Part shown: one piece after another, positions 1 through 24,619 of the stretch
Layout: every line of letters begins with the position of its first letter
How positions within the stretch are numbered: the first letter of the stretch is position 1
From: a virus
Reading direction: 5' to 3' (one strand)
IMG/VR virus record: IMGVR_UViG_3300030049_000041
Location: 1 to 36,778 of that record
Length of the DNA stretch: 36,778 bases
The notes under the pieces: model-generated
The model's input: the letters and a program-made list of their open reading frames with translations, nothing else
What the model was told of the DNA's origin: nothing
Database searches by the model: none
Position numbers and translations under genes: made by a program

Positions 1-1433
1 TCTTTAGAAGTTAGCATCTTGGCTAATTTGGCTTCAGCTTTTAAGGACTTAGACAAAGCAATCGTTTGACCAATAGCAATAATTTCATGCTTCGTAAGTT
101 CTGGCATACTTTTTGCCATAAAATTCTCAAAAGCTTCTCTCTTTTCCCAGGTCTGGTAGGCTTCTTTGGCGCGTTTCAAAAGTTCGGCCTTTTTCATCTT
201 CTTGTCAAGACTTTCCTTACTAAGCGCGGCACCACCACTAAGGGTACCGGGTCCAGCCATACCGGATCCAGCGGTCATTGCTTTTTGCATTGATTTAGCA
301 GGTGTACCTATTACTTTTCTACTCGACGTAACGGTCCCACCGCCATGTGTAGACGATGTTCTGGGCGCATGTCCTGGGGTTGCGGCAGTTCCGATTCTCA
401 TATCGATGTTACCGGCGGCTGCATGGGAACGAGTATTGGTTTGAGTTTCTTTTTTAGGTTTTGCACCCAGCAATTCTCCAACCGCACTAGGACGTTTAAT
501 CCAAGTTGTAGTTGTGGTGCCAGTTCTATCATTTCTAGCAGATCTATCCCAAGCTTTTCGTTCCGGAGTCTTGCCTTCATCAACACGGGCTTTTTCTAAA
601 GGTTTGGGTGTTGGTTTAGCAATGGGTCCAAACTTAGGAATGCCTCCAACTTTTTCTTGGGGAGGAGTTCCAGGCTTAACATCAGACTTCGGCGGATATT
701 TGCTACCAGGAACCTGGGATTTTTTCATTTCTTTTTTACCCATTCCAAGTCCTGACATTAGATTGCTCATAGGATTACCAAAAGGGGTAGGATTAGCGGT
801 CCAACCCAGATCAGGTTTTGGTGAGGCCGCAGGAGCGGGCATGTTGCCGTCTTTTTTAAGTTCGGTTTTTACAAGATCGATGGTATGGGTGAATTCGGAT
901 TTAAAGATGGAGTCTTCGGATTTTTGTTTGACTTCAGGGCCGGGAATGAGTTCGGCGACGCACTGTTTATTGGCGGGAGCATTTGTCACGGTTACTTTGC
1001 GAGCAATAGATTTTGTCACTATAATACCCTTTTTGTCGACTTTGCTGCCCTCGATGCTGAATCCAACCATTGGGGGCTCATCAGGATGTTCCGCATCGTC
1101 TATGAATAAGGCAGCGACTTCTTTTGAAGAGTCCTTTTTATCATCAAAAAGACGTCCCATTACATAAAGGAACGGATTTTGGCATTTTTCCCAAAAGCGT
1201 TTGTGATGTTCGTTTTCGCAATCAGCTTCAGAAAAGATCTTTTTGTATTCTAATATTTTTCCAACTAGTTGATTTGGTTGAGTATTTTGATGTTCCCAGG
1301 AAAATGGGCCTTGCAGAAGTGCAGAACAGTCGATACCGGCCAAATCCACAATTTCTCCGGCAGTATCAATTGCAGTGCTAGATCCAACACCATGGATATA
1401 TGTTGGGCCGGTTTTAGGAGTTTCTGTCGCCAT
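1..1433 (-). CDS. Putative prohead (capsid maturation) protease fused to a scaffold-like C-terminal region; partial
   Basis: The frame is open for 477 codons from the ATG at 1433 and runs off the left edge, so the C-terminus is missing. Residues 1 to about 165 look like a phage prohead serine protease. There is a candidate catalytic His at residue 48 (SWEHQN), a candidate nucleophile Ser126 in the motif GFSIEG, and a downstream block VTVTNAPAN (147-155) of the kind seen after the active site in S78-type prohead proteases. The rest is Pro/Lys/Gly-rich and ends in helical, Ala/Lys-rich sequence, as in protease-scaffold fusions. IFKSE (176-180) and MKKAE (near base 203) match the putative cleavage motif found in other proteins here, which suggests self-processing. 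No clear Shine-Dalgarno sequence precedes the ATG. AATCTTTA lies 5 bases upstream. The family assignment rests on motifs read by eye; the exact peptidase clan is uncertain. Confidence 0.62.
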   Translation of the reverse strand, partial: MATETPKTGPTYIHGVGSSTAIDTAGEIVDLAGIDCSALLQGPFSWEHQNTQPNQLVGKILEYKKIFSEADCENEHHKRFWEKCQNPFLYVMGRLFDDKKDSSKEVAALFIDDAEHPDEPPMVGFSIEGSKVDKKGIIVTKSIARKVTVTNAPANKQCVAELIPGPEVKQKSEDSIFKSEFTHTIDLVKTELKKDGNMPAPAASPKPDLGWTANPTPFGNPMSNLMSGLGMGKKEMKKSQVPGSKYPPKSDVKPGTPPQEKVGGIPKFGPIAKPTPKPLEKARVDEGKTPERKAWDRSARNDRTGTTTTTWIKRPSAVGELLGAKPKKETQTNTRSHAAAGNIDMRIGTAATPGHAPRTSSTHGGGTVTSSRKVIGTPAKSMQKAMTAGSGMAGPGTLSGGAALSKESLDKKMKKAELLKRAKEAYQTWEKREAFENFMAKSMPELTKHEIIAIGQTIALSKSLKAEAKLAKMLTSK

Positions 1434-1499
1434 AAGGTAAAGATTGTTTTTAGGGGGTCTGAATCCAAAAAGAGTAGGTAAAACAAGAGGTTGTGGGTG

Positions 1500-2834
1500 C
1501 TATAAATTAATGGACCACTGTTTCTTACCGCAGTCATAAATTCTATATAGACCTAGACTTAAAGCCAATTCTTTTTCGGTCATAGACATATCTCCTTTAG
1601 CACCTTTTTTAATTAACATCTTTTTCTGACAAGATTGTTTGGATATTCTAGACTGATTGCTAAAATAAGAATAGTCGGCAGGTAAATTTTCAGTTAATTC
1701 AAATTCTAACTTTTTGTAAACATTTCCTTCAGACCACCTATTGTCGGACCAGGAAATTAACCTCTTGTATCCCCTTTCTTTCGCATAGCTCACTAAACGA
1801 TTGAAAAGTTTAGAAGGGCCTCCAGCAATAGACACATCGGTCTTAAAAGCCAATCTATTTAAAACTAGCGTGTCGGAATGGCCTTGTCTATGATGTTTGT
1901 TGCCGGTAATTACTGCTTGTAGTTCGTTAAAATAATACAAACCAAACGATATTTCAAATACAGAAGACCCTTGAATATGATTTTGTTCTAAGAATTCTTT
2001 AGCTTCTTTTTTGGGCACTTCTTTAATTTTAGTTTTCCTTCCCATTATTTTGAACTCATTTTTATTGATAACCGACTTAAGAAGGTTCTTTACTTGATCC
2101 TGCCTTTTTAGCCATTCATCTTCAAATATTGTAATCAGTCTTATACCTTTTTCATTGCAAAATTTCATTTTATCATAATGGTAGCTATTTTCTTTATATT
2201 CTTCTGAGTGCCAATATAGGCCACAATATTCAATGGCTAGCTTCAATGATGGTATGTAAATATCTAGTTCCAACGGAGATATTACTTTTCTAGTATCGTA
2301 TACGGTATCAGGATAAAAAGAGTTAATGAAATCAAATATTTCTTTTTGTACATAGCTTTTCTTCTCATTTTTTGGAGCATGTACGCAGATTTCATCTATA
2401 AGACCTCGTCTACAAGCGGTTAGATAGGCACTTCCGCTTTTTTCTTCAAATTTGGTTCTGCTTTTATGTTTTAAAGCTTCTTTGGCCAATTCTTCGTCCG
2501 TCCAATAATGGAGAAGGTTTTTCATATGGGAGCAGATTTCATCTAGCACATCGCTGTACCAAGCTGCGTGGTAAGCTTTTGGATTTTTATCTTTAAATTC
2601 GCTTTTTGAATTGTACTTCAGAGCTTCTTGTTTTAAAATATCCAGGGACCATTTAAAATTAGGATTTCTGTCGCCATTGATGTTAAAGGCTTCCATGTGC
2701 TTACAGATAATGTCCAGTAGGTTTTTGCGCTGAGCCGTATTGTAGGCCGTCTTACTTCCCTTTTGGAAAGCAGATCTTTTTGTGTATTTTATAGCTTCGT
2801 TCTGTAATTTTTCTAAAGTCCAAGTTCTATTCAT
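1500..2834 (-). CDS. VSR-like (EDxHD) homing endonuclease with three N-terminal repeat modules and a GNAT-like C-terminal domain
   Basis: 444 residues. Three repeats of about 45 residues begin at W5, W62 and W111. Each has the pattern of an acidic helix, a K/R-rich turn, AYxxA and a closing [ILV]-[D]-x-[I]-C-x-H segment; they are probably DNA-binding modules. Residues about 165-255 carry the EDxHD/VSR-type nuclease pattern: E189 and D191, E202 in IEYCGLYWH, H209, H219, then IFEDEW (237-241). Residues about 280-390 resemble a GNAT fold, with a GGPSKL turn-helix (338-343) and a motif B-like NVYKKLEFE (371-379). The C-terminal 250 residues are closely similar to those of the gene at 26140-27537. 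It is a free-standing gene between the tail tube gene and the protease gene, with its own promoter. The likely role is gene mobility (homing); the role of the GNAT-like part is unknown. Confidence 0.82.
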   Translation of the reverse strand: MNRTWTLEKLQNEAIKYTKRSAFQKGSKTAYNTAQRKNLLDIICKHMEAFNINGDRNPNFKWSLDILKQEALKYNSKSEFKDKNPKAYHAAWYSDVLDEICSHMKNLLHYWTDEELAKEALKHKSRTKFEEKSGSAYLTACRRGLIDEICVHAPKNEKKSYVQKEIFDFINSFYPDTVYDTRKVISPLELDIYIPSLKLAIEYCGLYWHSEEYKENSYHYDKMKFCNEKGIRLITIFEDEWLKRQDQVKNLLKSVINKNEFKIMGRKTKIKEVPKKEAKEFLEQNHIQGSSVFEISFGLYYFNELQAVITGNKHHRQGHSDTLVLNRLAFKTDVSIAGGPSKLFNRLVSYAKERGYKRLISWSDNRWSEGNVYKKLEFELTENLPADYSYFSNQSRISKQSCQKKMLIKKGAKGDMSMTEKELALSLGLYRIYDCGKKQWSINL

Positions 2835-5627: not shown

Positions 5628-5894
5628 TTAAACTTTCTTGATTCCAAAATGTTTTAAACCGGCTTCGAAATTAGCGGGTTCATCGTTCTTAGTGGCAACC
5701 ATATGAAGCCAAAGAATTTCTTCTAGCTTATTGGTCATGCCGTAGGCTTTTTTATTTTGGGCCCAAAAGGCTTTAAAAGCTTCGCGTCTTTGTTTACCGG
5801 ACAAAGTTTTTTCTTGGGGACGAGCTAAAGCAGCTCGAAAAGCCTTCGCTTCTTCTAGAGTCATCTCTGCGGCTTGAGTTTGTTTCTTAGCCAT
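5628..5894 (-). CDS. Small protein of unknown function
   Basis: 88 residues from the ATG at 5894 (MAKKQTQAAEMTLEEAKAFR). A GTG at 5906 would add four residues, but AAAGG at -12 fits the ATG. The protein is helical and charged, with a mid-section rich in K, R and aromatic residues (KRREAFKAFWAQNKKAYG). The start overlaps the end of the HNH endonuclease gene by 8 bases, so translation is probably coupled. Its place between the HNH gene and the sheath suggests a small tail or head accessory protein such as an assembly factor, but no family was recognised. Confidence 0.6.
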   Translation of the reverse strand: MAKKQTQAAEMTLEEAKAFRAALARPQEKTLSGKQRREAFKAFWAQNKKAYGMTNKLEEILWLHMVATKNDEPANFEAGLKHFGIKKV

Positions 5895-6483
5895 AAATTT
5901 TGTCACCTTTCTTAATATTGTCTACGGCCCACAAAGGCTGTAAATTGGTGTAATGACAAGCCTTCAAAAACTGTTCTCTATCTGTTAAATCAAAGCTAGC
6001 CAAGGGGACTTTATGATCCAAATGCCATCCTCTTGGGCTATAGTTAGCCCATGTCATGCCCGGCTGGAGTAGACCTTCTATATAAGATTTAAAAGATTCT
6101 ACAGAACATCCCAAATCATCTACCGCCGAACCTGCCTTGTACCCTCTTTTAATAGCCATATTAAGACGTCCTCTTAAATTAGCTGCCAATTTAAATTGAG
6201 GATCATTTTTTCTTCTAGCCCTGAGTCTAGCATTGGTTTTGGGTTTGATAGTTTCTAAATTCAAAGCACGATAGATCTTTTTTTCTTCTATAATCTCTAC
6301 CCTGTTTTCTTTATAATATCTTCTTTGACCCGCCATAACCTTTTCTTTGTTTTTTTCATTATAATCTAGTAAATAAGCGGCTCTACACTCTTTGCATTGC
6401 CCATTAAGACCGTCTTTGTTTTGGGGAGCTTTCCCAAAACATTCAAGGTCTTTTGTGATTTCGCACTTCGAACAGGTTTTCAT
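5887..6483 (-). CDS. HNH homing endonuclease with N-terminal zinc finger
   Basis: 198 residues. The N-terminal treble-clef-like zinc motif has C4-x2-C7 and C30-x2-C33. A basic helical linker follows (about 40-120). The C-terminal HNH domain is clear: WHLDHKVPLASF (153-164; H154, D156, H157) and HYTNLQPLWAVDNIKKGDK (176-195; N180 and N189 in the N and H/N positions). This zinc-finger plus HNH layout is common in free-standing phage endonucleases. The gene sits in a virion operon two bases after the preceding stop, with no promoter of its own visible, and overlaps the next gene. It probably moves by homing and uses the host operon for expression. Confidence 0.88.
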   Translation of the reverse strand: MKTCSKCEITKDLECFGKAPQNKDGLNGQCKECRAAYLLDYNEKNKEKVMAGQRRYYKENRVEIIEEKKIYRALNLETIKPKTNARLRARRKNDPQFKLAANLRGRLNMAIKRGYKAGSAVDDLGCSVESFKSYIEGLLQPGMTWANYSPRGWHLDHKVPLASFDLTDREQFLKACHYTNLQPLWAVDNIKKGDKIYG

Positions 6484-6485: not shown

Positions 6486-7172
6486 TTATATCTTCTTTGT
6501 GTCCGGTTGACTATCCTGGGTCGATCTTGGGGCTGGAGCAGAAGCGGCTGGAGATCCTACGGCGGCGGCGGATTCTTGAGCTTTTTTCTTTGCGTGGCGA
6601 AATTCCATAAATTTCGATAGTTTAGCCGACAAAATCAGCCTTGGAATCGTTGTTGCTTTGTCGGTCTTATCTTCAGGATTAGCCATAGAATGTCCTTCTT
6701 GTCGTTCAGCGCCTGCATTTTCTTTAAAATGTTCTTCGACGTCGTTCTCGACTTTTTCACCAAGCGCAGCGTCTTGCTCTTTATCTGGATTTTCAGCCTT
6801 GCCTAAAGCTTTCTTTTCTTTAGCCAATTCTCCGGCAACCTTGTCTTTAAACTCGTAGTGGGGTTCCATGCCATCGGGCTTATTGTTGCCTTCAGCTTCT
6901 TCTTTTGGATTACCACTTGGAGAAATTTGCTTAGCAACACGAGGGCCGGTAGAATCCTTGGAACCACCTGATTTCACTTCATATTCTTTATAATCGCGTT
7001 CGGTCGCTTTTTGAGCGGTTTCAATTTTGCCATACTTAACGCCGGGCTTAGGGGAATTTTCAGTCTTGTATTCGGATTTAACAAGATCGGAAGTTTCAAG
7101 GACTTGTTTGGCCTTGGCGAGAACGGCTAGAATTGCATCGCGTGCTGAAACTGTTTTATTGTTTTCGGCCAT
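6486..7172 (-). CDS. Charged, probably head-internal protein with a putative cleavable N-terminal segment
   Basis: 228 residues, very rich in Lys, Glu, Ala and Ser, and probably largely disordered. Residues 1-34 form a helical segment ending in LVKSE (30-34). The scaffold-like protein at 23780 has the same motif at exactly the same residues (LAKSE, 30-34). That motif is a candidate prohead protease site. The C-terminus is Ala/Pro-rich. The ATG at 7172 has a good AAGGGG ribosome binding site, and AATCTTTA lies 19 bases upstream, so this gene probably opens a transcription unit running to the sheath and tube genes. No known family was recognised. Confidence 0.65.
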   Translation of the reverse strand: MAENNKTVSARDAILAVLAKAKQVLETSDLVKSEYKTENSPKPGVKYGKIETAQKATERDYKEYEVKSGGSKDSTGPRVAKQISPSGNPKEEAEGNNKPDGMEPHYEFKDKVAGELAKEKKALGKAENPDKEQDAALGEKVENDVEEHFKENAGAERQEGHSMANPEDKTDKATTIPRLILSAKLSKFMEFRHAKKKAQESAAAVGSPAASAPAPRSTQDSQPDTKKI

Positions 7173-7208: not shown

Positions 7209-7481
7209 TCATTTTTGAGCCCGTTTTTTCATTTTATGTTCAATAAAATCCTTTAATTTACAGACACTTAGATGTTTTGGCTTATCTTCACTTTTCCCAA
7301 AAAACACGCTTGGCGGCGCAAATGCATCGCGTGGCGCTTTTGGCTTTGGCATTTTCGCAGCCACACCTTGCTTACCAATTTTGGTTATGTCTTTAGGAGC
7401 ACTAGCGGCGGGCGTACCTAAAGTTGTACCCAGAGTCGAGCCCAAAGTAGCACCGAGTTTGGGGGTTTTGGGTAGTTTCAT
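7209..7481 (-). CDS. Small basic protein of unknown function with FGKSE motif
   Basis: 90 residues. The N-terminal third has short Gly/Thr/Leu repeats (LGATLGSTLGTTLGTP), the middle is Lys/Pro-rich, and FGKSE (61-65) matches the putative protease motif. The C-terminal helix ends in KKRAQK. The ATG at 7481 shares bases with the previous stop (TAATG), so translation is coupled to the 344-codon gene upstream. It may be a small internal head protein. No family was recognised. Confidence 0.6.
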   Translation of the reverse strand: MKLPKTPKLGATLGSTLGTTLGTPAASAPKDITKIGKQGVAAKMPKPKAPRDAFAPPSVFFGKSEDKPKHLSVCKLKDFIEHKMKKRAQK

Positions 7482-9345: not shown

Positions 9346-9606
9346 CTAGCCTTTTACGGGAAGACCTCTTGGTCCCTTAACTCTAGGGGTTTTCATGTCG
9401 ATGTAAGCATCTTTTCCCGTAGAGGGATCGATATAGCGTTTCTGGCCTTTAGCATTGACGCCTCCAACCGGAGTGGTCTCTTTGGGAATATGTGGTGTAG
9501 AATGTTTAGTCGGCAATTTCTTAACCGATCCTACGGCGCCCTCGGCCTGAGCTTCGGGCTTACTGCTGTGGGGCTCCAGGCGGCCCCTCCTGGGGAGCCG
9601 CTTCAT
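9346..9606 (-). CDS. Small Pro/Lys-rich protein of unknown function
   Basis: 86 residues if the ATG at 9606 is used. The frame is open up to 9738, but that longer form would overlap the preceding gene by almost 180 bases, so the shorter start is preferred; TGGAAA before 9606 is a weak ribosome binding site. The protein is basic and probably disordered, with KGQKRYIDPSTGKDAYIDMK in its second half. It overlaps the end of the GGDEF-like gene by 47 bases and ends one base before the tail-completion-like gene. The start remains uncertain. Confidence 0.45.
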   Translation of the reverse strand: MKRLPRRGRLEPHSSKPEAQAEGAVGSVKKLPTKHSTPHIPKETTPVGGVNAKGQKRYIDPSTGKDAYIDMKTPRVKGPRGLPVKG

Positions 9607-11230
9607 CGTGAGGTTTTCCACAACTAGGACATGCGCTTTCAGCAGGGGCTTCAGCTGGCGTACCCTCTTCTCCAGGAGTTTCTTCTGGAGCAGTACTCTG
9701 ACCTTCGATTTCATTAACTTCTTGTTCGGCTTCACCATCGTTGATTCCAGCCAATGAGCAGAGTTCGATCATAGCGCGTAACATGGAAATGCAACTTGCG
9801 TACAATTCTGGCGCTTGTTCCTTCGCTTTATCGAGAATTGCTTTCTGACTCTTGAATCCTTCCAGGGCTTCTCCAACCATGTTGACAACTTTTTCTTTCT
9901 GGATATTTTCTGCGTGCTCATCAAGTCCATCGCGAAGAACGCCGTCTAGGTCGGGTTCGCCGGAGTCTTCTTCGCTAAGTCCCATGTCTTCGCGTTTATC
10001 GTCATAGTCTTCGGGACGACTAATTCCATCTTGATCCATGTTATCTTGCATATCGGTGGCATTATCGATGTGCTGGTCTAAAGTTTCTTCCGCGCCTTCA
10101 GGTTGGCCGTCATCTAAGGTATTTTCAAAATCCTGAGCATTGTCAACGTGTTCGTCCAAAGTAGTTTCTGCGTCTTTGTGATCTGCGCAAGTACAGCTCT
10201 CACAATGTTTGGTTTCCATGTCCTGGTCTTCAGTGGCTTCGGCTTCATCTGTGGTAGCGTTTTCAACGGGAACATCGGCTTCGGGCTGAATCTGTTCGCC
10301 TTCGCCGGGTCCATATTTAAGATCACCGGGTTTATCGTTATCTCTAGGCTGAGCCTCACTTTGTGGAACATTGCTTTGTGGGACTTCTTCGTCGCCCTCA
10401 GCTTGTCCATGGTATGCTTTTGGTGCTGGTTTTTCAATCATAGGAGCCTCTTCATCTGGATTGGCGGGTTCTTCATTCATTTGACGGTTGGTCTCTTGAA
10501 TATCGGTAGAAACCGCTTCTTTGACCGGCGTTTGCTGTTTTAGGTTAGGTTTTGCAATCGTAGGAGGAGTCATATCCTCGGCTCTATAAGAGTCTTTTCT
10601 AGTGGTGGGATTGCTATTTTTATAACCCGAATCATATCCGTTATTATTATCTTCAACTGGTGGCTCACAAGAAGTGGGTTCGTTAACAGCAGCGTCAGAT
10701 CCTTCTGGCAATACCTTGTCAGATTCTGGAGGCGCGTTTCCAGGTTCTTGTGCTTGCGTGCCGTTATCGCTAGTAAGTACACCTTTTATTTTTTTTGCTT
10801 CTGCGTCGGGAGAATTTTCTTCTTCACCGATACGCTGAAGCTCGTCTTCCATCGAATCTTCGTACTGTACGACTTGATCTTTTCCGCGACTTTTAGCAAC
10901 CAAAAGTGCTTTACCGGCTTGAGAGATAGTATCTCCATATCCAACGGATAGTGTGGCTTGAACTATATATTCATAATCTTTTCGGAGCTGATCGAGAAGC
11001 TCCACAAACTCAGGAGGAGCCATAAATGAGAATTCGTCGCCGCCGCCACTAATCCATTCGCCCCCATGGGATTCAACAAAGTCTCTTACAAAATTATTTC
11101 CTTCGGTGATATGTTCCGAAACTTCTCTTACTTGAGCGATGTCATCGGACAAAATGGCCCGAGCGTGTCTTTGACCAATGTTATCGCCATCTCCGGCGAA
11201 GACTAAGTGCTGGGACGTATTAGTATCCAT
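9560..11230 (-). CDS. GGDEF/mCpol-like nucleotidyl cyclase domain protein with long acidic tail
   Basis: 556 residues from the ATG at 11230, which overlaps the preceding stop (TAATG). A longer frame from 11269 is less likely. Residues about 8-124 have the layout of a GGDEF/Cas10-palm (mCpol) domain. LVFAGDGDNIG has metal-binding D14 and D16, and ISGGGDEFSF contains the exact GGDEF signature (63-67, with D65 and E66). TLSVGYGD (93-100) and KALLVAKSRGKDQVVQY (107-123) match the strand and the AK-x2-G-[KR]-[ND]-x-V end of GGDEF domains. Such domains make cyclic dinucleotides or oligonucleotides from NTPs. The rest is acidic and low-complexity, with two Cys/His clusters (CESCTCADH and, near the end, CPSCGKPH), two repeats around LDEHVDNAQD / LDQHIDNATD, and one helical segment (about residues 440-495). 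The product and role are unknown. Confidence 0.78.
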   Translation of the reverse strand: MDTNTSQHLVFAGDGDNIGQRHARAILSDDIAQVREVSEHITEGNNFVRDFVESHGGEWISGGGDEFSFMAPPEFVELLDQLRKDYEYIVQATLSVGYGDTISQAGKALLVAKSRGKDQVVQYEDSMEDELQRIGEEENSPDAEAKKIKGVLTSDNGTQAQEPGNAPPESDKVLPEGSDAAVNEPTSCEPPVEDNNNGYDSGYKNSNPTTRKDSYRAEDMTPPTIAKPNLKQQTPVKEAVSTDIQETNRQMNEEPANPDEEAPMIEKPAPKAYHGQAEGDEEVPQSNVPQSEAQPRDNDKPGDLKYGPGEGEQIQPEADVPVENATTDEAEATEDQDMETKHCESCTCADHKDAETTLDEHVDNAQDFENTLDDGQPEGAEETLDQHIDNATDMQDNMDQDGISRPEDYDDKREDMGLSEEDSGEPDLDGVLRDGLDEHAENIQKEKVVNMVGEALEGFKSQKAILDKAKEQAPELYASCISMLRAMIELCSLAGINDGEAEQEVNEIEGQSTAPEETPGEEGTPAEAPAESACPSCGKPHDEAAPQEGPPGAPQQ

Positions 11231-14789: not shown

Positions 14790-15281
14790 TTATTTGATCC
14801 GGATGGTTTTAGCTTTAACAGAGAGAGCTTTTTCGGTTGTAGCCGCAGCTAGAGATTTTTTGAACTCTTCGGGGAAGTCGATGGCTTCCAAAGATAGGGA
14901 GCCCTCAACCATGGAACCGTTAATACCAGCAACTTTGATGTTGTGCTTGGTGACTTGGAATTCGATGGCGTCGTTTTCTTGGATACTGTAGATGTCGTGA
15001 CCACTTTTACGCAGATCGTCAGATAAGAAGTGTGAGTGTTTGTCAACGATGGCGTCCATGCCAGCGTTTTCACTTTTGCAGAGAGCGGCTTGGAAGTTAG
15101 GGAACATCTTAGACACACTGTGCTTAACGATCGCTGGGTGAGATCCGCCTGCAACGACTTTGCCGTTGATAATGCTCATCCAAAATCCACCACGGGTTCT
15201 GATGAGTTTAACCGGTTGTCCATCTAAAATACCTGCGTCTTCAATGGTATCAATATCTTCGGGGCGAATATTCATTGACAT
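14790..15281 (-). CDS. Unknown protein with internal LCKSE motif
   Basis: 163 residues. The N-terminal part is beta-rich (VKLIRTRGGFWMSIINGKVV), LCKSE occurs at 67-71, and the C-terminus is mixed and ends basic (KAKTIRIK). AAGGAG stands 5 bases before the ATG at 15281. It lies between the transglycosylase gene and a small Cys-containing gene, two bases from each. No family was recognised. If the KSE site is cut, it would split the protein into two roughly equal parts. Confidence 0.6.
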   Translation of the reverse strand: MSMNIRPEDIDTIEDAGILDGQPVKLIRTRGGFWMSIINGKVVAGGSHPAIVKHSVSKMFPNFQAALCKSENAGMDAIVDKHSHFLSDDLRKSGHDIYSIQENDAIEFQVTKHNIKVAGINGSMVEGSLSLEAIDFPEEFKKSLAAATTEKALSVKAKTIRIK

Positions 15282-15283: not shown

Positions 15284-16477
15284 TTACTCCTTGCCTTCGT
15301 AGGCGTGTTTAAATTTCTGCACATATGGGTGCGAGGAAATGTCGTGTTTTTGATTTAAGGCGCGATTCGTACCTGTGACACCTTGGTTCCAAGAAAACGC
15401 TATTAGGCTGGGATTCTGGCCGAAATGGTGTTCGAGTCTGGAAAGATGTTTATCGGCGATCTGCTCTTCTAACTTTGGGTTGTCCTGCATGTAACGGTGG
15501 AGATCGTCACCCTGAAGATTTAGGGCTTTTTGATGCTGGCGTTTCAGATCGGGGTTGAGGCGAATAGTGTCGTGGATCATGTCGGGCATTTCGGCAAATC
15601 GGCCATATGCTCGGCCCATGGAGGTTGGCTTGTGCACGGTATTTTTTCCGCCGCTACTCTCAACTTGTGAAATAGCGTCTAACATCTTTTTTCGATCGTA
15701 GCCCGTAGTTGGGTGAGCACCGGCTTGGGGATGTAGGGGTTCGTGATTGGGCGCGTGGGCTTCTGAGGGAACAGCGGAGGCCAAAGCAGCGCCCATGGTT
15801 CCAGCGGTTAGGAGATTTTTGAGTGCGCCTTTTTCGAGGGATTCGTTCTTTTTAACATGCTTTGGCAGATGCTTGCCTTTGGTAGCGTTATCCCATTCCT
15901 TCACAGCGGCTTCTCCACCAAGCGCGGCTTTACCTTCAGGTGAATGACCCCATGCGGCTTGAGCTTGGCTGGACCAGGGTTTTAGAAGGGGTTGGATTTC
16001 GGATTTCTGCATGCTGTCGTTCTGAACCGGCTGCGGGTGATACATAGCCACTACATTGGAAAGACTGGGGTGCCCGCTATTATGGAATCCATGGAAGCCG
16101 TGTTCTTTGATTTTGGAGTGTACGGTATCCATATTAGTAATACCTTGATTTTCCTCGATGGCTTGTCTGACCAAGCCCTTAGGATCTTTACCAATATCGT
16201 AAATGGGTTTGTCGGCGCCGATTTTAACGTGGTATTTGTTAGCAGCTCTACCGGTTACCACTTCTTCGGGTTCGGTTCCATGCCTATAATAGAAGGAGTG
16301 TGGGTGTTCGGTGCTGCGGCCTTTGGTTCTGCTGTCGACGCCGGTTCCGCTGAACTTTGGGTCGATGTATTTGAGACCGGCTTGGGGGGAATAGTGGACT
16401 AGATGGAGATCTTCGGCTTTACGTAAAGATGGTTCCACGGAATCTTCAAATTCTTTCTTCCACTGATTATGATGCAT
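15284..16477 (-). CDS. Two-domain virion protein: ART-like N-terminal domain and lytic transglycosylase (SLT-like) C-terminal domain
   Basis: 397 residues from the ATG at 16477, supported by GGAGA eight bases upstream; longer in-frame starts lack a site and overlap the preceding gene. Residues 1-22 end in LRKAE (18-22). Residues about 23-150 (LHLVHYSPQAGLKYIDPKF, SFYYRHG, then NVVAMYHP) resemble ADP-ribosyltransferase-like domains of phage polyvalent proteins, tentatively. MQKSE (156-160) sits between the domains. A hydrophobic Ala/Leu stretch (221-241) follows. The C-terminal domain (about 258-397) has the transglycosylase pattern AISQVESSGGKN with candidate catalytic E273, AYGRF, and SWNQGVTGTN. 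It probably cuts peptidoglycan at genome entry. The ART-like call is the weak part. Confidence 0.7.
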   Translation of the reverse strand: MHHNQWKKEFEDSVEPSLRKAEDLHLVHYSPQAGLKYIDPKFSGTGVDSRTKGRSTEHPHSFYYRHGTEPEEVVTGRAANKYHVKIGADKPIYDIGKDPKGLVRQAIEENQGITNMDTVHSKIKEHGFHGFHNSGHPSLSNVVAMYHPQPVQNDSMQKSEIQPLLKPWSSQAQAAWGHSPEGKAALGGEAAVKEWDNATKGKHLPKHVKKNESLEKGALKNLLTAGTMGAALASAVPSEAHAPNHEPLHPQAGAHPTTGYDRKKMLDAISQVESSGGKNTVHKPTSMGRAYGRFAEMPDMIHDTIRLNPDLKRQHQKALNLQGDDLHRYMQDNPKLEEQIADKHLSRLEHHFGQNPSLIAFSWNQGVTGTNRALNQKHDISSHPYVQKFKHAYEGKE

Positions 16478-17693
16478 TGTGCCAGTCTCCATTGGTAATG
16501 TGTTCTGGTAACAATCCCGCTTTTTGATCCGCAAACTTTGTCTGGGCTGGATTTTTTCTATTGTTTTCTCCGTGAGGACCAAAATTCACCCAATTATTTT
16601 GTCCCATAGTTTCTGTAGCCAATGCTTTTCCCGCTAGAGGGCTATACATTTTCTTATGGGTGAGATAGGCTTGGTGCTCCCCGGTTGGCCCAAATCCGGT
16701 TTCTCCACCGGCGTGATGGCCGTTGATGTCGTGAACGATTCTAAAGATGTCGTTGTGTACCAAAGACTTGCCGTCGTGTTTGAAACCGCTGGGGCCCAAC
16801 ATTGGGTGGTCCGAAGCTTGCCCACCACTACCAAAGCCCTGTTCGGTTGGGAAGTACCACAGATGTTTGTTATTCTTGATGTCGTTATGCATTTCTTTGG
16901 AACTTTTGTAGGGATTGGCTTGACCGGGTTTGATTTGCGAGATCTTAAGTCCGGATCCCATGATGTCTTTGAATTGTTTGCCGGTCTCGTTGGTCAAAGC
17001 ATCGTAGGCGGCTTTGACGTGTGGGCTATTGGGCTCGTGTTTCATACCCTCGTAGGCATCTGCTATGGCCTTACCGTGTTCGGGATTGATTTTGACAGGA
17101 GGCTTGACGGTTGAGGGAGCGTCGCCTTCGGACTTTTTCATCGGCTCTTTTAATTTATAAGTATGAATAACTTCTTTGCCACGCTTCAGCTGTGCTGGCC
17201 CGAATTCAATTCCGGCTTCATGCGCGGTCTTATGGCCGCTGGCTTTGATTTCATCGTGTACGGCTTTAGGCACACTGATGTGGGCGTTCCAGTCATAGTT
17301 TTCTTTGTGACCCATGTGATCGAACTTTTTATGATTCTCTTTGAGCTTGTCGGCGTGCTTGCCATGCAAAGTTATCGCGTATACGTCGTTACCCATGCGA
17401 TCTTTAATCACATTGGTGCCGATATGGGTTTCTTTGGGATCGGGTGGGGTGAGGTCTAATTGGGAAGCGGTTTTGTGGGCGTCGTCGTGGTTGTCTTTTT
17501 CTTTATCGAAGAATTTTACAGTGGAATGGTAATCGATACCATTATCTTTTCTGTGACTTTCGCCGTTGATCTTTACAGGGTGAGCAAGAATGAAACCAGT
17601 GGAAGCGGTCTTAGCGTAGGCAACGGGATCCTCAGCTTTCTTCAGCGAGTACTCTTCGGTAAGAGCTTTGCGGAGATGCTTAAGCAAGGACAT
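16467..17693 (-). CDS. Two-domain protein: 2H-phosphoesterase-like N-terminal domain and conserved HD-x2-GH/FGPxGE domain
   Basis: 408 residues. Residues 1-21 form a helix ending in LKKAE. Residues about 30-185 have the two signature motifs of 2H phosphoesterases (LigT/CPDase/Acb1 type): H56-S-T58-V and H138-I-S140-V, 82 residues apart, with beta-strands before each. These enzymes cut 2',3'-cyclic or other cyclic phosphodiester bonds. MKKSE (185-189) closes this domain. The C-terminal domain (about 200-408) carries a strongly patterned block, FRIVHDINGHHAGGETGFGP then GEHQAYLTHKKMYSPLAG and QNNWVNFGPHGENN, which I know only as a domain of unknown function in phage and mobile-element proteins. 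It overlaps the transglycosylase gene by 11 bases. GGAG precedes the start. Confidence 0.7.
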   Translation of the reverse strand: MSLLKHLRKALTEEYSLKKAEDPVAYAKTASTGFILAHPVKINGESHRKDNGIDYHSTVKFFDKEKDNHDDAHKTASQLDLTPPDPKETHIGTNVIKDRMGNDVYAITLHGKHADKLKENHKKFDHMGHKENYDWNAHISVPKAVHDEIKASGHKTAHEAGIEFGPAQLKRGKEVIHTYKLKEPMKKSEGDAPSTVKPPVKINPEHGKAIADAYEGMKHEPNSPHVKAAYDALTNETGKQFKDIMGSGLKISQIKPGQANPYKSSKEMHNDIKNNKHLWYFPTEQGFGSGGQASDHPMLGPSGFKHDGKSLVHNDIFRIVHDINGHHAGGETGFGPTGEHQAYLTHKKMYSPLAGKALATETMGQNNWVNFGPHGENNRKNPAQTKFADQKAGLLPEHITNGDWHNAS

Positions 17694-18549: not shown

Positions 18550-19557
18550 TTATACTCCTAGAAACCTTAAAGCTTTGTTGATACAAGCTTGTTTGTCGAC
18601 TTTCCACTCTTCTTCTTTAATGTGTAATACCAAAATACCGTGACAGTCCATTAAAGCGCTATCCTTAATTTCATGATAATTTCGAATATCTTCATCGGAC
18701 CATTTCTTTTTCTTTTTATCGCTTCTCATGTACTCAAAAGAATGATAGTATTCTCCATCAAATTCAATTCCAATTTTCTTTTCTGAGTCATACATATCAA
18801 CTTCAAAAGCTTTAATATGGGATTTATTCAGAACGGTAACCTTAAACTTTTTTCTTTTTAATTCTGGAACGTATTTTCTAAGAGCTTCTAGAAGTTCCAA
18901 CTCCATTTTAGAGACATTATTAAGTACGCAATCGGCGCATCTATAACCAGTATAGAAATCGCCATATCTAACAAAATAAGTGTGGCCAGCCGGACAAATG
19001 GTTTCTAGACGAGTGTTGGCGTTTACATATTTTTCGCTAACTACTTCGTATCCATCTTTACCAAAAAATGCTACCACTTCTTCTCTTGTATGTTTCTTAT
19101 TTTTAGCTTCTGGAAAATCTTTACACAGTTTTTTTAACACTTTTCTGCTACAAGCAACAGTATAGGCCCCAGGATATTTATCTCTAAATTCCTGATTAGA
19201 AGAGCAAGTTTTTACTAGAGCTTCTAATTCCTCATACGTGTAAGCCTCCGTTTTTGGAGGAGGCATGTGAGAACAAATTTCGTCTAAAATTTCCATATCA
19301 CGAGCTGCGTTATACTTAGACGGAGATTTCTTTTTAAATTCTCCTCTAGTTCCGCACGAAAGAGCAAATTCTTTTAATTCTTCGTAAGTGTAAGCGCCTC
19401 TCTTTTTTACAGGCATAAGAGATTTGATCTTTTTGTCTATGCCAAAGCGTTTCGCGGCCTGCCATGCTCCGGCGCTATTTTTGATAAAATCCGTCATACT
19501 CCCGTGTTTCAGGGCTAGTTGAATTATTTCGTCTGGATAGTCCCAATTCTTCCTCAT
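18550..19557 (-). CDS. VSR-like (EDxHD) homing endonuclease with three N-terminal repeat modules
   Basis: 335 residues. Three modules begin near residues 5, 56 and 107 and share the pattern of those in the 1500-2834 gene, including YTYEELKEFALSCGTRGEFK and LDEICSHM. A zinc-binding segment follows (C188, H192, C207, C210: ICPAGHTYF ... CADC). The nuclease core is E252 and D254 in FEVDMYD, E265 in IGIEFDGEYYH with H272, H295, and LHIKEEEW (311-318). There is no GNAT-like extension. It is AT-rich compared with neighbouring virion genes. It has its own promoter at 19566-19595 and abuts the next gene. Confidence 0.83.
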   Translation of the reverse strand: MRKNWDYPDEIIQLALKHGSMTDFIKNSAGAWQAAKRFGIDKKIKSLMPVKKRGAYTYEELKEFALSCGTRGEFKKKSPSKYNAARDMEILDEICSHMPPPKTEAYTYEELEALVKTCSSNQEFRDKYPGAYTVACSRKVLKKLCKDFPEAKNKKHTREEVVAFFGKDGYEVVSEKYVNANTRLETICPAGHTYFVRYGDFYTGYRCADCVLNNVSKMELELLEALRKYVPELKRKKFKVTVLNKSHIKAFEVDMYDSEKKIGIEFDGEYYHSFEYMRSDKKKKKWSDEDIRNYHEIKDSALMDCHGILVLHIKEEEWKVDKQACINKALRFLGV

Positions 19558-19565
19558 ACACCCTT

Positions 19566-19595
19566 AATATATCACATAACCTTTTGTTTTGTCAA
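19566..19595 (-). promoter_or_regulatory. Sigma70-like promoter of the VSR-like endonuclease gene
   Basis: On the minus strand: TTGACA (19595-19590), 18-base spacer, TATATT (19571-19566), with TGA directly before the -10 box. Eight bases separate the -10 box from the ATG at 19557, so the transcript should start close to the start codon. AAGGG in that gap could also serve as a ribosome binding site if transcription starts earlier. Confidence 0.62.
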
Positions 19596-19601
19596 CTAAA
19601 T

Positions 19602-20030
19602 TTAAAAGAAAAACGTATTATCTGGCAGGTTTGGATCAGAACCATCAGCCAAGTATTCTACAACCAACATCTGTTGCACCTGGAAATTGGTCTGGGTGTT
19701 ACCCTCAAATAGTACAAACTTCACAGCCCCGGTTTGGGGCGTATTCGTGCTGGGGATCACAACACTCCAAACACTCTCATCGTTTGGGTTCTGTACGGCC
19801 AGAAGCATTAAAACCTGACTACAGTCAATTGACGGAAAGAACACCCTAACCGCAGCGGGTTGATTGCTGGTTCCGATTCCGGCTAAGTACCTGAGATTGC
19901 ATTGATCCAAATCCACGAGTTGGAAATAGAGAGTACTAGAGTTTCCTGCCTGAACTGTCCATTGATTGGCGTATTTAAAACTGTTAATATTCTGAAAGTT
20001 TATGATTGGTTTTGCACTCAGCCTGGGCAT
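19602..20030 (-). CDS. Small virion protein
   Basis: 142 residues, beta-rich, with many Asn, Gln, Thr and Val and few charged residues, typical of phage virion proteins. It contains ANQWTVQAGNSSTLYFQLVD (21-40) and ends in DNTFFF. AAGGGG stands six bases before the ATG at 20030. It is the first gene of the long minus-strand virion cluster; AATCTTTA lies 55 bases upstream in the divergent gap. The function is inferred only from composition and place. Confidence 0.6.
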   Translation of the reverse strand: MPRLSAKPIINFQNINSFKYANQWTVQAGNSSTLYFQLVDLDQCNLRYLAGIGTSNQPAAVRVFFPSIDCSQVLMLLAVQNPNDESVWSVVIPSTNTPQTGAVKFVLFEGNTQTNFQVQQMLVVEYLADGSDPNLPDNTFFF

Positions 20031-20048
20031 AAGTTCCCCTTAATTGTC

Positions 20049-20077
20049 TTGACAAAGCCTCCCAAATAGGATAAGCT
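20049..20077 (+). promoter_or_regulatory. Possible promoter of the dNMP kinase operon
   Basis: TTGACA at 20049-20054 with a 17-base spacer to TAAGCT, which matches the -10 consensus at only three positions. It lies in the 92-base divergent gap before the plus-strand operon. The -35 box is perfect and the -10 box is poor. Confidence 0.3.
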
Positions 20078-20084
20078 TTTGATG

Positions 20085-20092
20085 TAAAGATT
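20085..20092 (-). promoter_or_regulatory. AATCTTTA element in the divergent gap
   Basis: AATCTTTACAT on the minus strand, 55 bases before the ATG at 20030. The copy upstream of the gene starting at 21713 has the same extended sequence and almost the same distance (54 bases). Confidence 0.42.
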
Positions 20093-20122
20093 GATCTTTT
20101 AAGCCAGAATTGGGGTAACTAC

Positions 20123-20326
20123 ATGAAAACTAAGAAGAAAACGAAGAAAAGCCATAAGAAGGGGAAAAAGAAGGCGAAACCAGATAGCCTCATTGGTTTA
20201 ACCTATGAAAATATCATAAAAGAGTACACAGCCCTTGAGCAAGAAATCATTGAGCAGGCTAAAAAAGAAAATCATCCCAGTTGGGTTGACGGCCTTATGA
20301 AAATCTTCGGACTCAGGCGCAAATGA
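20123..20326 (+). CDS. Small basic protein of unknown function
   Basis: 67 residues. The first 20 residues are almost entirely Lys, Thr, Ser and His (possible nucleic-acid binding). The rest is an amphipathic helix (ENIIKEYTALEQEIIEQAKK) and ends in GLRRK. It is the first gene of a three-gene operon; its TGA overlaps the next ATG (ATGA). A GGGG stretch precedes the start. No family was recognised. Confidence 0.6.
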   Translation: MKTKKKTKKSHKKGKKKAKPDSLIGLTYENIIKEYTALEQEIIEQAKKENHPSWVDGLMKIFGLRRK

Positions 20327-20502
20327 CTGATCAAGAGAAAATCGCAAAATTAGAGCAGATTATTGAATCCTCATTCCTGGCTTTTAAGATGTTACCCGAT
20401 CTAACCTGCTGTGTTGGATGCGAAGCTCGAAATAAAGAACTCGTAGAGAAGATCTACGTACAAATTGAAACCGCAGTAAATCTTAAAAAGGAGATAGTAT
20501 GA
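20323..20502 (+). CDS. Small 59-residue protein, translationally coupled
   Basis: ATG at 20323 overlaps the preceding stop (ATGA), and its TGA at 20500-20502 overlaps the ATG of the dNMP kinase gene, so the three genes are coupled. The protein begins MTDQEKIAKLEQIIESS and contains a Cys cluster CCVGC (29-33) between two helices, possibly a metal or disulfide site. The function is unknown. The reading is supported by the double overlap rather than by homology. Confidence 0.6.
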   Translation: MTDQEKIAKLEQIIESSFLAFKMLPDLTCCVGCEARNKELVEKIYVQIETAVNLKKEIV

Positions 20503-21781: not shown

Positions 21782-22444
21782 TTATAACTCTACTATGATT
21801 GGAGGATTGGTTGGTCTATATTGTTCTGTGCAATTTGATGCGTTTACATAAGTAATATCGCCTACTTGGAGTTTTCCATATCCTCCGTGAATATGGCCAA
21901 AGACGTGGAGCTTAAGTTGTTTTAACTCCGAAATCCTTTCTTTTAGGGCATAACAACCGACATGTTCGATTTCGAATTCGCATAATTTCCCATTAAAACG
22001 TTCGACTCCATCTAGAATACCCATTGGGGGTCCGTGTGTTATAAGGACGTGGGTGTCGTCGGGAATTTCCGCCCAATACTTGGCTATCTCTAGACGATCG
22101 ACATTAAAAGCCCAATTACAGAACGCCGGAGAGTTAGCCGATGCCCATATTTTCAGGCCTTCTACCTCAATTCCTTCTTGATGAAGAACTTTTATGCCCT
22201 CATCCTCGCACATTTGTTTTGCAAGAGCCCAGTTGTTTTCAAAAAGTCGGTCATGATTACCTGGAGTTAGGATACAGCCGTGTTTAAAATTCTTGGCGAT
22301 ACGGCCAAGTTCTCGAAGTTCTTGGGAGATCTCTTGAACGTTGCCCTGGAAGGTGAGATCTCCGGCATGCAAAAGAAGATCGCTTTCGGGTACGATAATT
22401 TTTCTTAAGCGGCAGTGGGTGTCGGAAATAAGAGTCAGTTTCAT
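21782..22444 (-). CDS. Calcineurin-like metallophosphoesterase
   Basis: 220 residues with all five metal-binding blocks in order: D8-x-H10 (SDTH), G28-D29 (HAGDL), G62-N63-H64-D65, H137 (ITHGPP) and G183-H184-I-H186. The spacing and features such as SPAFCNWAF resemble the MPPED1/2-type subgroup (cytosolic phosphodiesterase). The substrate is unknown; in a phage it could act on cyclic nucleotides or RNA/DNA ends. Its start overlaps the stop of the HNH endonuclease gene by four bases (ATGA), so expression is coupled to that gene. Confidence 0.85.
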   Translation of the reverse strand: MKLTLISDTHCRLRKIIVPESDLLLHAGDLTFQGNVQEISQELRELGRIAKNFKHGCILTPGNHDRLFENNWALAKQMCEDEGIKVLHQEGIEVEGLKIWASANSPAFCNWAFNVDRLEIAKYWAEIPDDTHVLITHGPPMGILDGVERFNGKLCEFEIEHVGCYALKERISELKQLKLHVFGHIHGGYGKLQVGDITYVNASNCTEQYRPTNPPIIVEL

Positions 22445-23067
22445 ATTTTGCTCCTAAATTTAACTAATTTATCCAGCCAAATTAGAAATTCTTCTACAGG
22501 TCTATCATTTTTAGCGACATTGCAAAAAGTACAACATGGGACCGAATTTTCGGGTGTGTAACCAATATCACTATCTAACCTATCAACACCGTTATACAAT
22601 ATTTCACCTTTCTCCAAAACATTTTCTTTGGGATATTTAAGAGACTGTTTCCAACTCCTATTTTTAAAAGTATTGTAAGGATTGGAGGGCCCACATCCAC
22701 AATAATGACAATCCATTTTTAATATTTCGGAAGTTTGCTCTAAAGTCAAAGCCCATGGGATGTTTCTAATTTTAGCGTGAGCTTTGACGTTAGAAGCCTT
22801 TGCTCTGAATGAAGCTTCTTTTGGTTCAAATTTCTTATTTCTTCCGCGTGCTCCTTGAGCACTTTTGTATTCTTTAGCGGTACATTCTTTACAACTTTTA
22901 ATAAAGCCCTTAACCACAGCACTTGCTTTGGATATTCTAGTACTCCCGCATTCACAATTAAAAAGCCATCGACTTCTTTGCTCCCCCTTTTCGGGATTTT
23001 CGCGCACAATTCTTTCTACTGCTGTTAGCTTTCCAAACGTTTTGCCTAATAAATTGTGGCCTCTCAT
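22441..23067 (-). CDS. HNH endonuclease with N-terminal zinc motif
   Basis: 208 residues. The N-terminal part has FNCECGSTRISKAS and CKECTAKE Cys pairs, a zinc-ribbon pattern. A basic helical region follows, then the HNH domain: CHYCG (139-143), NGVDRLDSDIGYTPENSVPC (159-178) and CTFCNVAKNDR, with the Asp and Asn residues in the positions usual for phage free-standing HNH homing endonucleases. A GAGC site precedes the ATG. Its own promoter lies at 23120-23147, and it overlaps the phosphoesterase gene by 4 bases. It is AT-rich. Confidence 0.87.
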   Translation of the reverse strand: MRGHNLLGKTFGKLTAVERIVRENPEKGEQRSRWLFNCECGSTRISKASAVVKGFIKSCKECTAKEYKSAQGARGRNKKFEPKEASFRAKASNVKAHAKIRNIPWALTLEQTSEILKMDCHYCGCGPSNPYNTFKNRSWKQSLKYPKENVLEKGEILYNGVDRLDSDIGYTPENSVPCCTFCNVAKNDRPVEEFLIWLDKLVKFRSKI

Positions 23068-23097
23068 ACATAGCTCCTATTTTCTGGTAATCCTAAT

Positions 23098-23105: not shown

Positions 23106-23119
23106 ACCGTTCTATGTAA

Positions 23120-23147
23120 GTTATATCATAACTATTAAAGAAGTCAA
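23120..23147 (-). promoter_or_regulatory. Sigma70-like promoter of the HNH endonuclease gene
   Basis: On the minus strand: TTGACT (23147-23142), 16-base spacer, TATAAC (23125-23120), with TGA before the -10 box. Unlike the promoters of the VSR-like genes, this one leaves a leader of about 45 bases. Confidence 0.6.
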
Positions 23148-23267
23148 GCTTTTTATTTTAATTAACTTATTGAAATTGCAGTGTTTTCTATATTAAGAAC
23201 AATGTTTAACTGTAGATACGCGTATTTATGCCCCCATGTGGGCTAACTTTTTTAAAGGAGATTTATT

Positions 23268-23738: not shown

Positions 23739-23779
23739 TTATAGACTTTTTAACCAATATAATAATGAAAGGAGTAAAT

Positions 23780-24619
23780 ATGAAGTACACACCAGAAGCC
23801 GTTGCAAAACTCGTAGCCGATGTGGAACTAGCATTTACTGCTGAATTGGCTAATAAAAAGTCAACTCTTGCGAAGTCCGAAGATGGCGAAAAGCCAGCTG
23901 AAGACAAGCATGAAGAGAAGCCCGAACACAAAGAAGCCGCTCCTGCTGAAGGCGAGAAGCCAGAAGCTAAGGAAGAAGGCAAAGAAGAGCATCACGAAGA
24001 AAAACCCGAACATGAAGCCAAAGAAGGCCATGAACAGGGTCATGACTATGACGAAGAAGACATGGCGCACATGGACAAAATGTATCGCTCAATGTCTCCG
24101 GCAGAGCAAAGCGCTCATCATAGCTGTCTTCAAAAGTGTATGGGTAAAACTGAAGCCAAACCAGCCGAGATGGAAAAACACGAAAAGGCAAAAGACCTAG
24201 GTACTGAAGGACACAAAAGCGGCGGAGAAATGTCTGCCGATGCTCCTTCTAAGACCCCAGGCGCTAAATCGCCCGCCAGCAAAGCAGATGGAGAGCAGAT
24301 GGAAAAATCAGAAAACACAGAAGTCGAACTTCTTAAAAACGAACTTGCAGCTGAAAAAGCTGAAAAGGCAGCGATTAAGGAATTCTTGACGGCTCTTGCT
24401 AAGAAAACCGTTCCTCAAGGTAAGGCAATTACTTCCCTTGACGTTATCGCCAAAAGCGAAACGCCAGTTGAAGTGAAGACTCCTACTAAGAGCGAGATTC
24501 ACAAAATTCTTATGGCGAAGGATCCGTCCAAGCTTGAGAAGTCCGATAGAGACGCAATCAATTCGTTTTACCTCAATGGGCAGGTAAACATTAACAGTAT
24601 TAGCCACCTGCTCAAATAA
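23780..24619 (+). CDS. Putative capsid scaffolding / prohead core protein
   Basis: 279 residues from the ATG at 23780, with AAAGGAG at ideal distance; an upstream in-frame ATG at 23765 lacks one. The protein is strongly charged. Residues 35-100 are Glu/Lys/His repeats, the C-terminal half is helical, including a coiled-coil-like ELLKNELAAEKAEKAAIKEF (183-202), and it ends in a short conserved-looking tail (SFYLNGQVNINSISHLLK). LAKSE (30-34), MEKSE (174-178) and IAKSE (223-227) match the putative protease motif, with PTKSE and LEKSD as near copies. Position directly before the capsid gene, composition and multiple presumed cut sites all fit a scaffold removed during maturation. Confidence 0.7.
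   Translation: MKYTPEAVAKLVADVELAFTAELANKKSTLAKSEDGEKPAEDKHEEKPEHKEAAPAEGEKPEAKEEGKEEHHEEKPEHEAKEGHEQGHDYDEEDMAHMDKMYRSMSPAEQSAHHSCLQKCMGKTEAKPAEMEKHEKAKDLGTEGHKSGGEMSADAPSKTPGAKSPASKADGEQMEKSENTEVELLKNELAAEKAEKAAIKEFLTALAKKTVPQGKAITSLDVIAKSETPVEVKTPTKSEIHKILMAKDPSKLEKSDRDAINSFYLNGQVNINSISHLLK

Follow-up and report, generated by a model that had tools for sequence, protein, structure and literature searches.

A Lys-[Ser/Ala]-Glu motif in scaffold, protease and cargo proteins as the probable recognition site of a Herelleviridae-type head maturation protease in a clade of large phages

What accounts for the recurrence of one short motif, [MLIVF]-x-K-[SA]-E, in nine proteins encoded by a single stretch of viral DNA? 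The stretch, henceforth the window, comprises 36,778 bases (positions 1 to 36,778) of the IMG/VR virus record IMGVR_UViG_3300030049_000041; since it matches positions 14,932-51,709 of a 162,308-base record, G001, at 99.995%, we used the latter as the full genome of this virus. We consider it quite likely that the motif is the recognition site of the phage's own head maturation (prohead) serine protease, an enzyme of the Herelleviridae type, with hydrophobic-x-Lys-[Ser/Ala] as its core and the cut after the lysine. With less assurance, though still leaning in its favor, we propose that across a clade of large uncultured phages that includes the isolated Myxococcus phage Mx1 a single code serves both to dismantle the scaffold and to split polyvalent polyproteins into virion-packed effectors (2H phosphoesterase, GNAT, ART, NUDIX, transglycosylase), that a copy of the capsid arm anchors the protease in the shell, and that the core of the code derives from a common stock of the Herelleviridae and perhaps HK97.

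A scripted count over the window proteins recovered 17 matches in nine of them. Shuffling each whole protein gave a mean of 2.16 and a maximum of 8 in 2000 shuffles, and shuffling inside 30-residue windows a mean of 2.29 and a maximum of 9; no tripeptide of the window is more over-represented than KSE (18 versus 4.4 expected). The original prediction, made from the letters of the window, had listed 16 matches in nine proteins as a recurrent motif. All 16 and the nine proteins are borne out, LGKAE at residues 123-127 of the 6486-7172 gene having been missed, and the shuffles uphold the recurrence itself. Its further statement that the sheath, tube, capsid, fiber, chaperonin and endonuclease proteins lack the motif is correct by script for the full form, while bare KSE or KAE without the hydrophobic residue is present in two endonuclease-like genes, a kinase-like gene, the capsid protein and the chaperonin. 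As lysine and glutamate abound in the scaffold and in several of the cargo proteins, chance matches born of composition have to be weighed, but the shuffles keep composition and yield 2.2-2.3 matches in place of 17, reversed-order controls stay near expectation, and orthologous sites are conserved; the shuffles and reversed-order controls rule this explanation out and leave it with next to no weight. The serine codons at the sites (9 TCN and 4 AGY in the window; 47 TCN and 16 AGY in the scaffolds of 16 genomes) belong to two unconnected classes, which implies that the repetition was selected as protein and not copied as DNA, and a DNA-level repeat as the source of the motif was rejected on this ground.

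To place the motif in complete genomes we compared 17 of them: 16 of the 20 long records with a protease match, G001 included, and Mx1, with genes called by a purpose-written simple caller (the other four relatives, G002, G011, G015 and G020, stand outside the whole-genome counts). In G001 the head segment (genes 27091-55530; 9,063 residues) contains 15 x-KSE and 5 x-KAE matches, and the 39,291 residues outside it 1 and 7, respectively. Over the 17 genomes, x-KSE within 5 kilobases (kb) of the capsid or protease gene was observed 93 times versus 9.6 expected (9.7-fold); the next distance bins, up to 15-20 kb, gave 48/6.2, 38/6.8 and 18/5.5 (observed/expected), and past 20 kb the values are at background (11/11.3, 10/9.4, then 23/28.9 beyond 40 kb). 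The x-KAE signal is weaker, reaching 4.1-fold up to 5 kb and lying at 0.9 to 1.6-fold past 20 kb. Reversed-order controls lie between 0.5 and 1.64 observed/expected. Within 5 kb, variants that put T, G or N in place of S/A, R in place of K, or D in place of E exceed expectation 2.3 to 2.6-fold. Counted per protein (with a scaffold match in 16 of the 17 genomes), matches number 86 versus 3.2 expected in the scaffold, 30 versus 3.1 in the protease, 6 versus 2.6 in the portal, 1 versus 0.8 in the capsid protein, 0 versus 0.2 in the tube, 1 versus 1.1 in the sheath and 3 versus 2.0 in the chaperonin, with 146 versus 43 in other near genes and 121 versus 105 in far genes. KSE is absent from the top 12 trimers in whole-genome statistics, the signal being visible by region only. 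Equal frequency of the motif in non-virion proteins of the complete genome, which the original prediction had named as the result that would count against it, was not what these genomes displayed.

The motif is densest in the head scaffold. An open reading frame (ORF) lies directly before the capsid gene in all 63 capsid loci examined (of 64; L036, whose capsid gene starts at the contig end, was omitted), and these together with 16 from the genomes gave 79 scaffolds, reduced to 48 below 70% identity. Every one of the 48 has 2-9 sites, amounting to 270 matches versus 10.2 expected, at a median spacing of 33.5 residues. In this set: 1) the first position is L, M, I or V. 2) Lysine is required, with non-Lys versions occurring 25 times versus 67 expected and the Arg version 0 times versus 1.0. 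3) The residue after the lysine is small (S, A, N, G or T). 4) The last position shows Glu at 26-fold, Asp at 9-fold and, in small numbers, Phe, Met or Leu at 3.5 to 8-fold over expectation.

The protease itself is 617 residues long in G001 and gave no significant match in Pfam and none in NCBIfam in the 6 proteins scanned. His48 and Ser126 (FSIEG) are invariant in 22 protease sequences, six of them from Herelleviridae (SPO1, A5W, LP-048, EF24C, Bm15 and SAC12B), and by this invariance they are the likely catalytic residues. At the end of the catalytic domain, K178 and E180 of the IFKSE site are nearly invariant in 15 protease sequences, and a structural model of the protein is disordered at residues 167-172 and from 178 onward. 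The tail beyond contains a copy of the N-terminal arm of the major capsid protein (MQKAMTAGSGMAGPGTLSGGAALSKESLD); in Mx1 the corresponding pair is FAKAMEAGNFNAAPSTLQGGSAL in the protease tail and LRKAMEAGNFNAKPSTLVQGSAM in the capsid protein. The arm is present in each of the 17 proteases and each of the 17 capsid proteins: the pattern picked it up in 15 of either kind, the remaining 2 being recognized by eye, and among 3643 proteins it matched no others. A copy is also visible by eye in SPO1 and other Herelleviridae proteases, and the A5W protease retrieves the solved capsid protein at E = 1e-6. The arm copy is probably a docking device that holds the protease in the shell. In HK97, the C-terminal part of the protease serves encapsidation. 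The functional domains and encapsidation of the HK97 protease are also the subject of a study by Duda et al. (2013). Further additions occur in some relatives: the proteases of Mx1 (L090:13002-16721, 1239 residues) and G019 (18724-20418) have extra C-terminal regions that look kinase-like by eye, a Pfam scan of the Mx1 protease giving no match in that region, and the G012 protease contains an HExxH stretch.

Which bond would be cut? In Herelleviridae scaffolds hydrophobic-x-K-[SA] is found 11 times in SPO1 (1.17 expected), 13 in SAC12B (1.68), 8 in Bm15 (0.87), 7 in A5W (1.26) and 6 in EF24C (0.83), and more weakly in LP-048 (3 versus 1.27), with Glu after K[SA] in 0 or 1 instances each; two scaffolds from outside the family, PHB04 and DAC22, have 7 (0.71 expected) and 2 (0.93). 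The A5W capsid protein contains VVKSFQTGYG, and the matching chain in PDB entries 9row, 9rox and 9roz begins at that serine (Ser25, VVK/SFQTG); likewise six PDB entries for HK97, including 1ohg, begin at Ser104 of FNK/SLGS. A protease of the Herelleviridae type, scaffolds rich in Lys-[Ser/Ala] and mature chains beginning after lysine together make Lys-[Ser/Ala] a better reading than a cut after glutamate. Judging from these comparisons, the cut would fall after the lysine, two residues before the position first proposed, and the glutamate, less often aspartate, would be a clade-specific preference for the next residue, a combination to which we give considerably better odds than to its converse. 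Two further leads were set aside: the phage K peptide SFQTGYG..., as given in the consulted part of PMC5258805, is tryptic and decides nothing, and phage D3, whose scaffold domain has 113 residues according to the part consulted of PMC12749128, is not comparable, with a cut falling by record numbering at SMPRSA/ITS and a protease annotated as ClpP-like. A capsid cut site was also sought, and not found, in the consulted parts of PMC12886913 (phage 812) and PMC12282133 (a Listeria phage).

The original prediction had placed the cut after the glutamate, as in T4 gp21 and phiKZ-type proteases, which would make the lysine P3 and the serine or alanine P2 of the same maturation code. The strong enrichment of Glu after K[SA] in scaffolds would fit such an enzyme, as would its persistence beyond the serine in one cargo family and the broad distribution of the residue that follows it; SPN3US gp245 cleaves after A-x-E, a consensus ending in Glu and without lysine in the consulted part of PMC10052503. 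Against it, the relatives of this protease are those of Herelleviridae, whose scaffolds are mostly without that Glu and one of whose deposited mature capsid chains starts after lysine; moreover, scaffolds replace Glu by Asp, Phe, Met or Leu above expectation, while non-Lys versions are depleted. We therefore regard a cut after glutamate as probably wrong and this alternative as unlikely, though the least so of those considered here. The wider idea of a maturation code fared better: the motif is confined to head and cargo genes, is densest in the scaffold, lies behind the protease domain, between domains and after leaders, and is conserved in the clade, including the isolated phage.

Outside the scaffold and protease the sites sit mostly in leaders and linkers. 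Of the 146 matches in the near cargo genes, 23 start at residues 11-30, versus 4.2 expected. In the window, with the scaffold started at 23780 and the 15284-16477 gene at MHHNQ, the first copy closes five N-terminal segments of 21, 22, 29, 34 and 34 residues and stands at exactly residues 30-34 in two unrelated proteins, just as had been described. The capsid-targeting propeptides proposed on this basis suit the leader sites; they do not suit most of the sites, which are in the scaffold or deeper inside cargo. The AlphaFold2 (AF2) model of the 408-residue 16467-17693 protein has a predicted local distance difference test score (pLDDT) below 50 only at residues 3-5, 7-20 and 182-195, and its sites are at 17-21 and 185-189. 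A count based on the 14 proteins in which a site occurs together with a Pfam match (E up to 0.01) shows that 1 of 29 sites overlaps a match versus 5.25 expected (P = 0.019), the sole overlap being VKKSE of the 11972-12898 protein; with matches above the Pfam cut-off alone the figures are 0 of 12 versus 3.05 (P = 0.027). A 1479-residue protein of Mx1 has sites at 129, 606 and 1251 around GNAT (156-271), ART-PolyVal (649-896) and NUDIX (923-1033) domains, and in a 1598-residue protein of G012 the GNAT domain (235-292) is flanked by sites 159 and 335.

Alignments of protein families show the lysine to be the steadiest residue at three orthologous sites: 1) in the 163-residue family (14790-15281), every one of the 16 homologs has the Lys, and Ser and Glu are kept in 15 each, while identity in the flanks is 0.27-0.39. 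2) At the leader site of 11972-12898, Lys is kept in all 17 sequences, one of which aligns poorly, whereas 14 have the Glu and 5 the Ser. 3) Of 14 members of the 212-residue family beside the portal, 13 have the Lys, 11 the Glu and 9 the Ser. The motif also occurs in 5 of 5 homologs found of the 7209-7481 protein.

The N-terminal arm of the capsid protein and its copy in the protease also start with hydrophobic-x-K and a small residue, and scaffold copies of the motif could therefore mimic the arm, serving as an uncut dock that binds scaffold and cargo to the capsid lattice or to each other. The same position is, however, where the deposited mature capsid chain starts in the Kayvirus-type phage and in HK97, and sites between domains or behind the protease domain are places where a dock would have no reason to be; we think a docking motif improbable. 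Cutting by a host protease after injection would likewise account for sites that separate effector domains releasable in the cell, but the highest density is in the scaffold and protease, both of which act in the prohead, and the same core stands at the capsid cut of the relatives, leaving a host enzyme with hardly any likelihood.

Several observations weigh against cleavage by the prohead protease after lysine. Cleavage itself is unproven, and it, the exact bond, and the packaging and injection of cargo are what we infer from the patterns above. The chain starts in 9row and 1ohg are taken here from the deposited sequences and not from a sequencing experiment, and 5lii and SPO1 9vel are deposited full length. 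The protease model (pLDDT 81.5) had no PDB match at E<=0.001. Glutamate is strongly selected within the clade, and the leader site of 11972-12898 keeps it where Ser became Phe or Val (LNKFE, LAKVE), fitting a cut after Glu at least as well. The Arg-for-Lys version reaches 18 versus 7.0 (2.6-fold) within 5 kb of head genes, outside the scaffold, and some relatives show a weak excess when the genome is taken as a whole (G013 12 versus 9.3, G014 18 versus 12.2, G006 17 versus 10.4). Individual sites are also discordant: the leader site of 6486-7172 is present in 8 of the 11 genomes with homologs, out of register; the second site of 16467-17693 is absent from most aligned homologs; LVKSE of 14441-14788 is found in 0 of 7 other homologs and may be a chance match; and VKKSE of 11972-12898, perhaps not a genuine site, falls within a weak Pfam match (GAS2), in a conserved stretch that is probably folded.

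If the protease does cut at these sites, it would sever itself in the prohead from its long tail at IFK/SE, the arm copy in that tail being what probably docks it in the shell. It would also break the scaffold down into peptides a few tens of residues long, free cargo proteins from the N-terminal leaders that carry them into the prohead, and part packaged multidomain effectors, or polyvalent proteins, into their domains. The closest parallel is in Herelleviridae (SPO1, phage K/A5W, A511-like), which share a homologous protease with the invariant His and Ser, the same capsid family, a scaffold rich in hydrophobic-x-K-[SA] and the arm copy in the protease. They differ in that Glu hardly ever follows K[SA], in that their proteases, at 256-267 residues, have a short tail with no cargo domains seen, and in a compact portal-protease-scaffold-capsid order; in G001 that row is absent and protease and scaffold lie about 22 kb apart, and Mx1 retains the order with gaps. 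In HK97 (gp4/gp5) mature gp5 starts after FNK/S and its first 110 residues hold four hydrophobic-x-K-[SA] matches, the cut included, but the scaffold is part of the capsid protein and no separate cargo was seen, the likeness here coming from gp5 alone. The T4 maturation protease likewise trims the leaders of packaged head proteins and itself. The protease of SPN3US (gp245) and phiKZ does the same to itself and to the leaders of packaged head proteins, as stated in the consulted part of PMC10052503. In phage P1, the antirestriction head protein DarA loses its N-terminus to the prohead protease Pro, which, unlike the enzyme proposed here, has one cargo substrate besides the capsid protein in the part of PMC12810830 consulted.

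Polyvalent proteins were defined by Iyer et al. (2017; PMC5512222) as multidomain late-gene products with ART, GNAT and other effectors, predicted to be packed in virions; in the consulted part of that paper assemblin-like peptidases are named as likely processors where present, and most processing is tied to metallopeptidase domains. Several unrelated effector domains per late-gene polypeptide are found here in the 1479-residue protein of Mx1 and, in the window, in the 16467-17693 protein with its 2H-phosphoesterase-like and second domains; in contrast to that account, a head protease with a site code would process the cargo. A statement of such a code or of the arm copy for these phages was not found in a literature search limited to open-licence papers, which is weak evidence of absence. 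As far as that search shows, the novelty lies in the Lys-[Ser/Ala]-Glu code of this clade, in its extension over both scaffold and polyvalent cargo, and in the capsid-arm copy; Glu-specific head proteases trimming several packaged proteins, as well as polyvalent proteins and their likely packaging, were already known from the consulted parts of the papers cited above. If our reading is true, the sequence alone would predict which proteins are packed in the head and processed and where each effector starts, so that the injected proteome could be read off a genome from its code, and the arm copy would offer a testable answer to how such a protease stays in the prohead. Proteomics based on trypsin, which itself cleaves behind lysine, would leave these cuts hidden. 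The reading can be tested in the isolated relative Mx1, a Myxococcus phage, and in SPO1, a phage of Bacillus subtilis. Coordinates of all features are collected in Table 1.

Table 1. Features of the window (nucleotide positions; a slash marks the bond at which the cut is proposed)
Feature	Position	Strand	Remarks
Head maturation (prohead) protease	3-1433	-	PHROG 1028, E=2.6e-10, residues 89-161; truncated by window end
Site MKK/AE	183-197	-	residues 413-417, behind capsid-arm copy
Capsid N-terminal arm copy	204-296	-	protease residues 380-410; weak PHROG 752 (major head protein) match, E=0.0047
Site IFK/SE	894-908	-	residues 176-180, end of catalytic domain
Endonuclease-like gene (by eye)	1500-2834	-	long stretches in common with 26104-27537 (by eye)
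Endonuclease-like gene (by eye)	5887-6483		
Cargo gene	6486-7172	-	leader closed by LVK/SE (7071-7085, residues 30-34); second match LGK/AE (6792-6806)
Small cargo gene	7209-7481	-	FGK/SE (7287-7301)
Head-cluster gene with mCpol domain	9560-11269	-	E=6.4e-16
Endonuclease-like gene (by eye)	11230-11979		
Cargo gene	11972-12898	-	leader closed by LSK/SE (12812-12826); also MKKSE (12170-12184), VKKSE (12062-12076)
Gene, weakest member	14441-14788	-	LVKSE at residue 5 (14762-14776)
Cargo gene, 163 residues	14790-15281	-	LCK/SE (15069-15083)
Cargo gene, start at 16477 (MHHNQ)	15284-16477	-	leader to LRK/AE (16412-16426); MQK/SE (15998-16012)
Cargo gene, 408 residues	16467-17693	-	leader helix, LKK/AE (17631-17645), 2H-phosphoesterase-like domain, MKK/SE (17127-17141), second domain
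2H-phosphoesterase-like domain	17145-17612	-	residues 28-183 of the 16467-17693 protein
Endonuclease-like gene (by eye)	18550-19557		
Endonuclease-like gene (by eye)	22441-23067		
Head scaffold protein	23780-24619	+	directly before capsid gene; homologs all carry sites
Scaffold site LAK/SE	23867-23881	+	
Scaffold site MEK/SE	24299-24313	+	
Scaffold site IAK/SE	24446-24460	+	
Major capsid protein	24649-26034	+	PHROG 752, E=1.1e-41
Original N-terminal arm	24649-24771	+	in major capsid protein
Capsid arm start LMK-ALEAG	24670-24681 (LMKA)	+	position where deposited Kayvirus-type mature chain begins (PDB 9row, equivalent Ser25)
Endonuclease-like gene (by eye)	26104-27537	+	see 1500-2834
GroEL-like chaperonin gene	27568-29334	+	in 17 of 17 genomes examined
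Fiber-like protein	30594-34319	+	internal repeats (offset matches 74-86% to G001)
Three similar glycine-rich proteins	34321-36776		after fiber-like gene

Some of the effectors look aimed at host nucleotide signaling. The first domain of the 16467-17693 protein resembles 2H phosphoesterases in structural alignment (VIA-align, residues 32-183, best Z 9.3), with matches that include LigT, the rotavirus VP3 phosphodiesterase (PDE) and phage Acb1 (Z 6.9); a Foldseek search with this domain gave a best E of 5e-3 and none at 0.001. From this structural resemblance the domain is a candidate for action against cyclic-oligonucleotide defense. In the 15284-16477 protein, the region after MQK/SE is a lytic transglycosylase-like domain with a weak Pfam SLT match just under the cut-off. 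The mCpol (minimal CRISPR polymerase) domain of the window recurs in relatives (L185:54-2228, L135:13050-14657, L090:33963-35369 and L209:585-1997), one of these being below the Pfam cut-off and some having an adjacent cut site; we judge a phage-borne mCpol among late genes to be unusual. Mx1 also encodes a 559-residue protein (L090:37603-39282) whose sites are at 77 and 535 and whose residues 291-380 gave a weak match of S-adenosylmethionine lyase-like kind that stays under the Pfam cut-off. The endonuclease-like genes of the window are scattered amid its structural genes.

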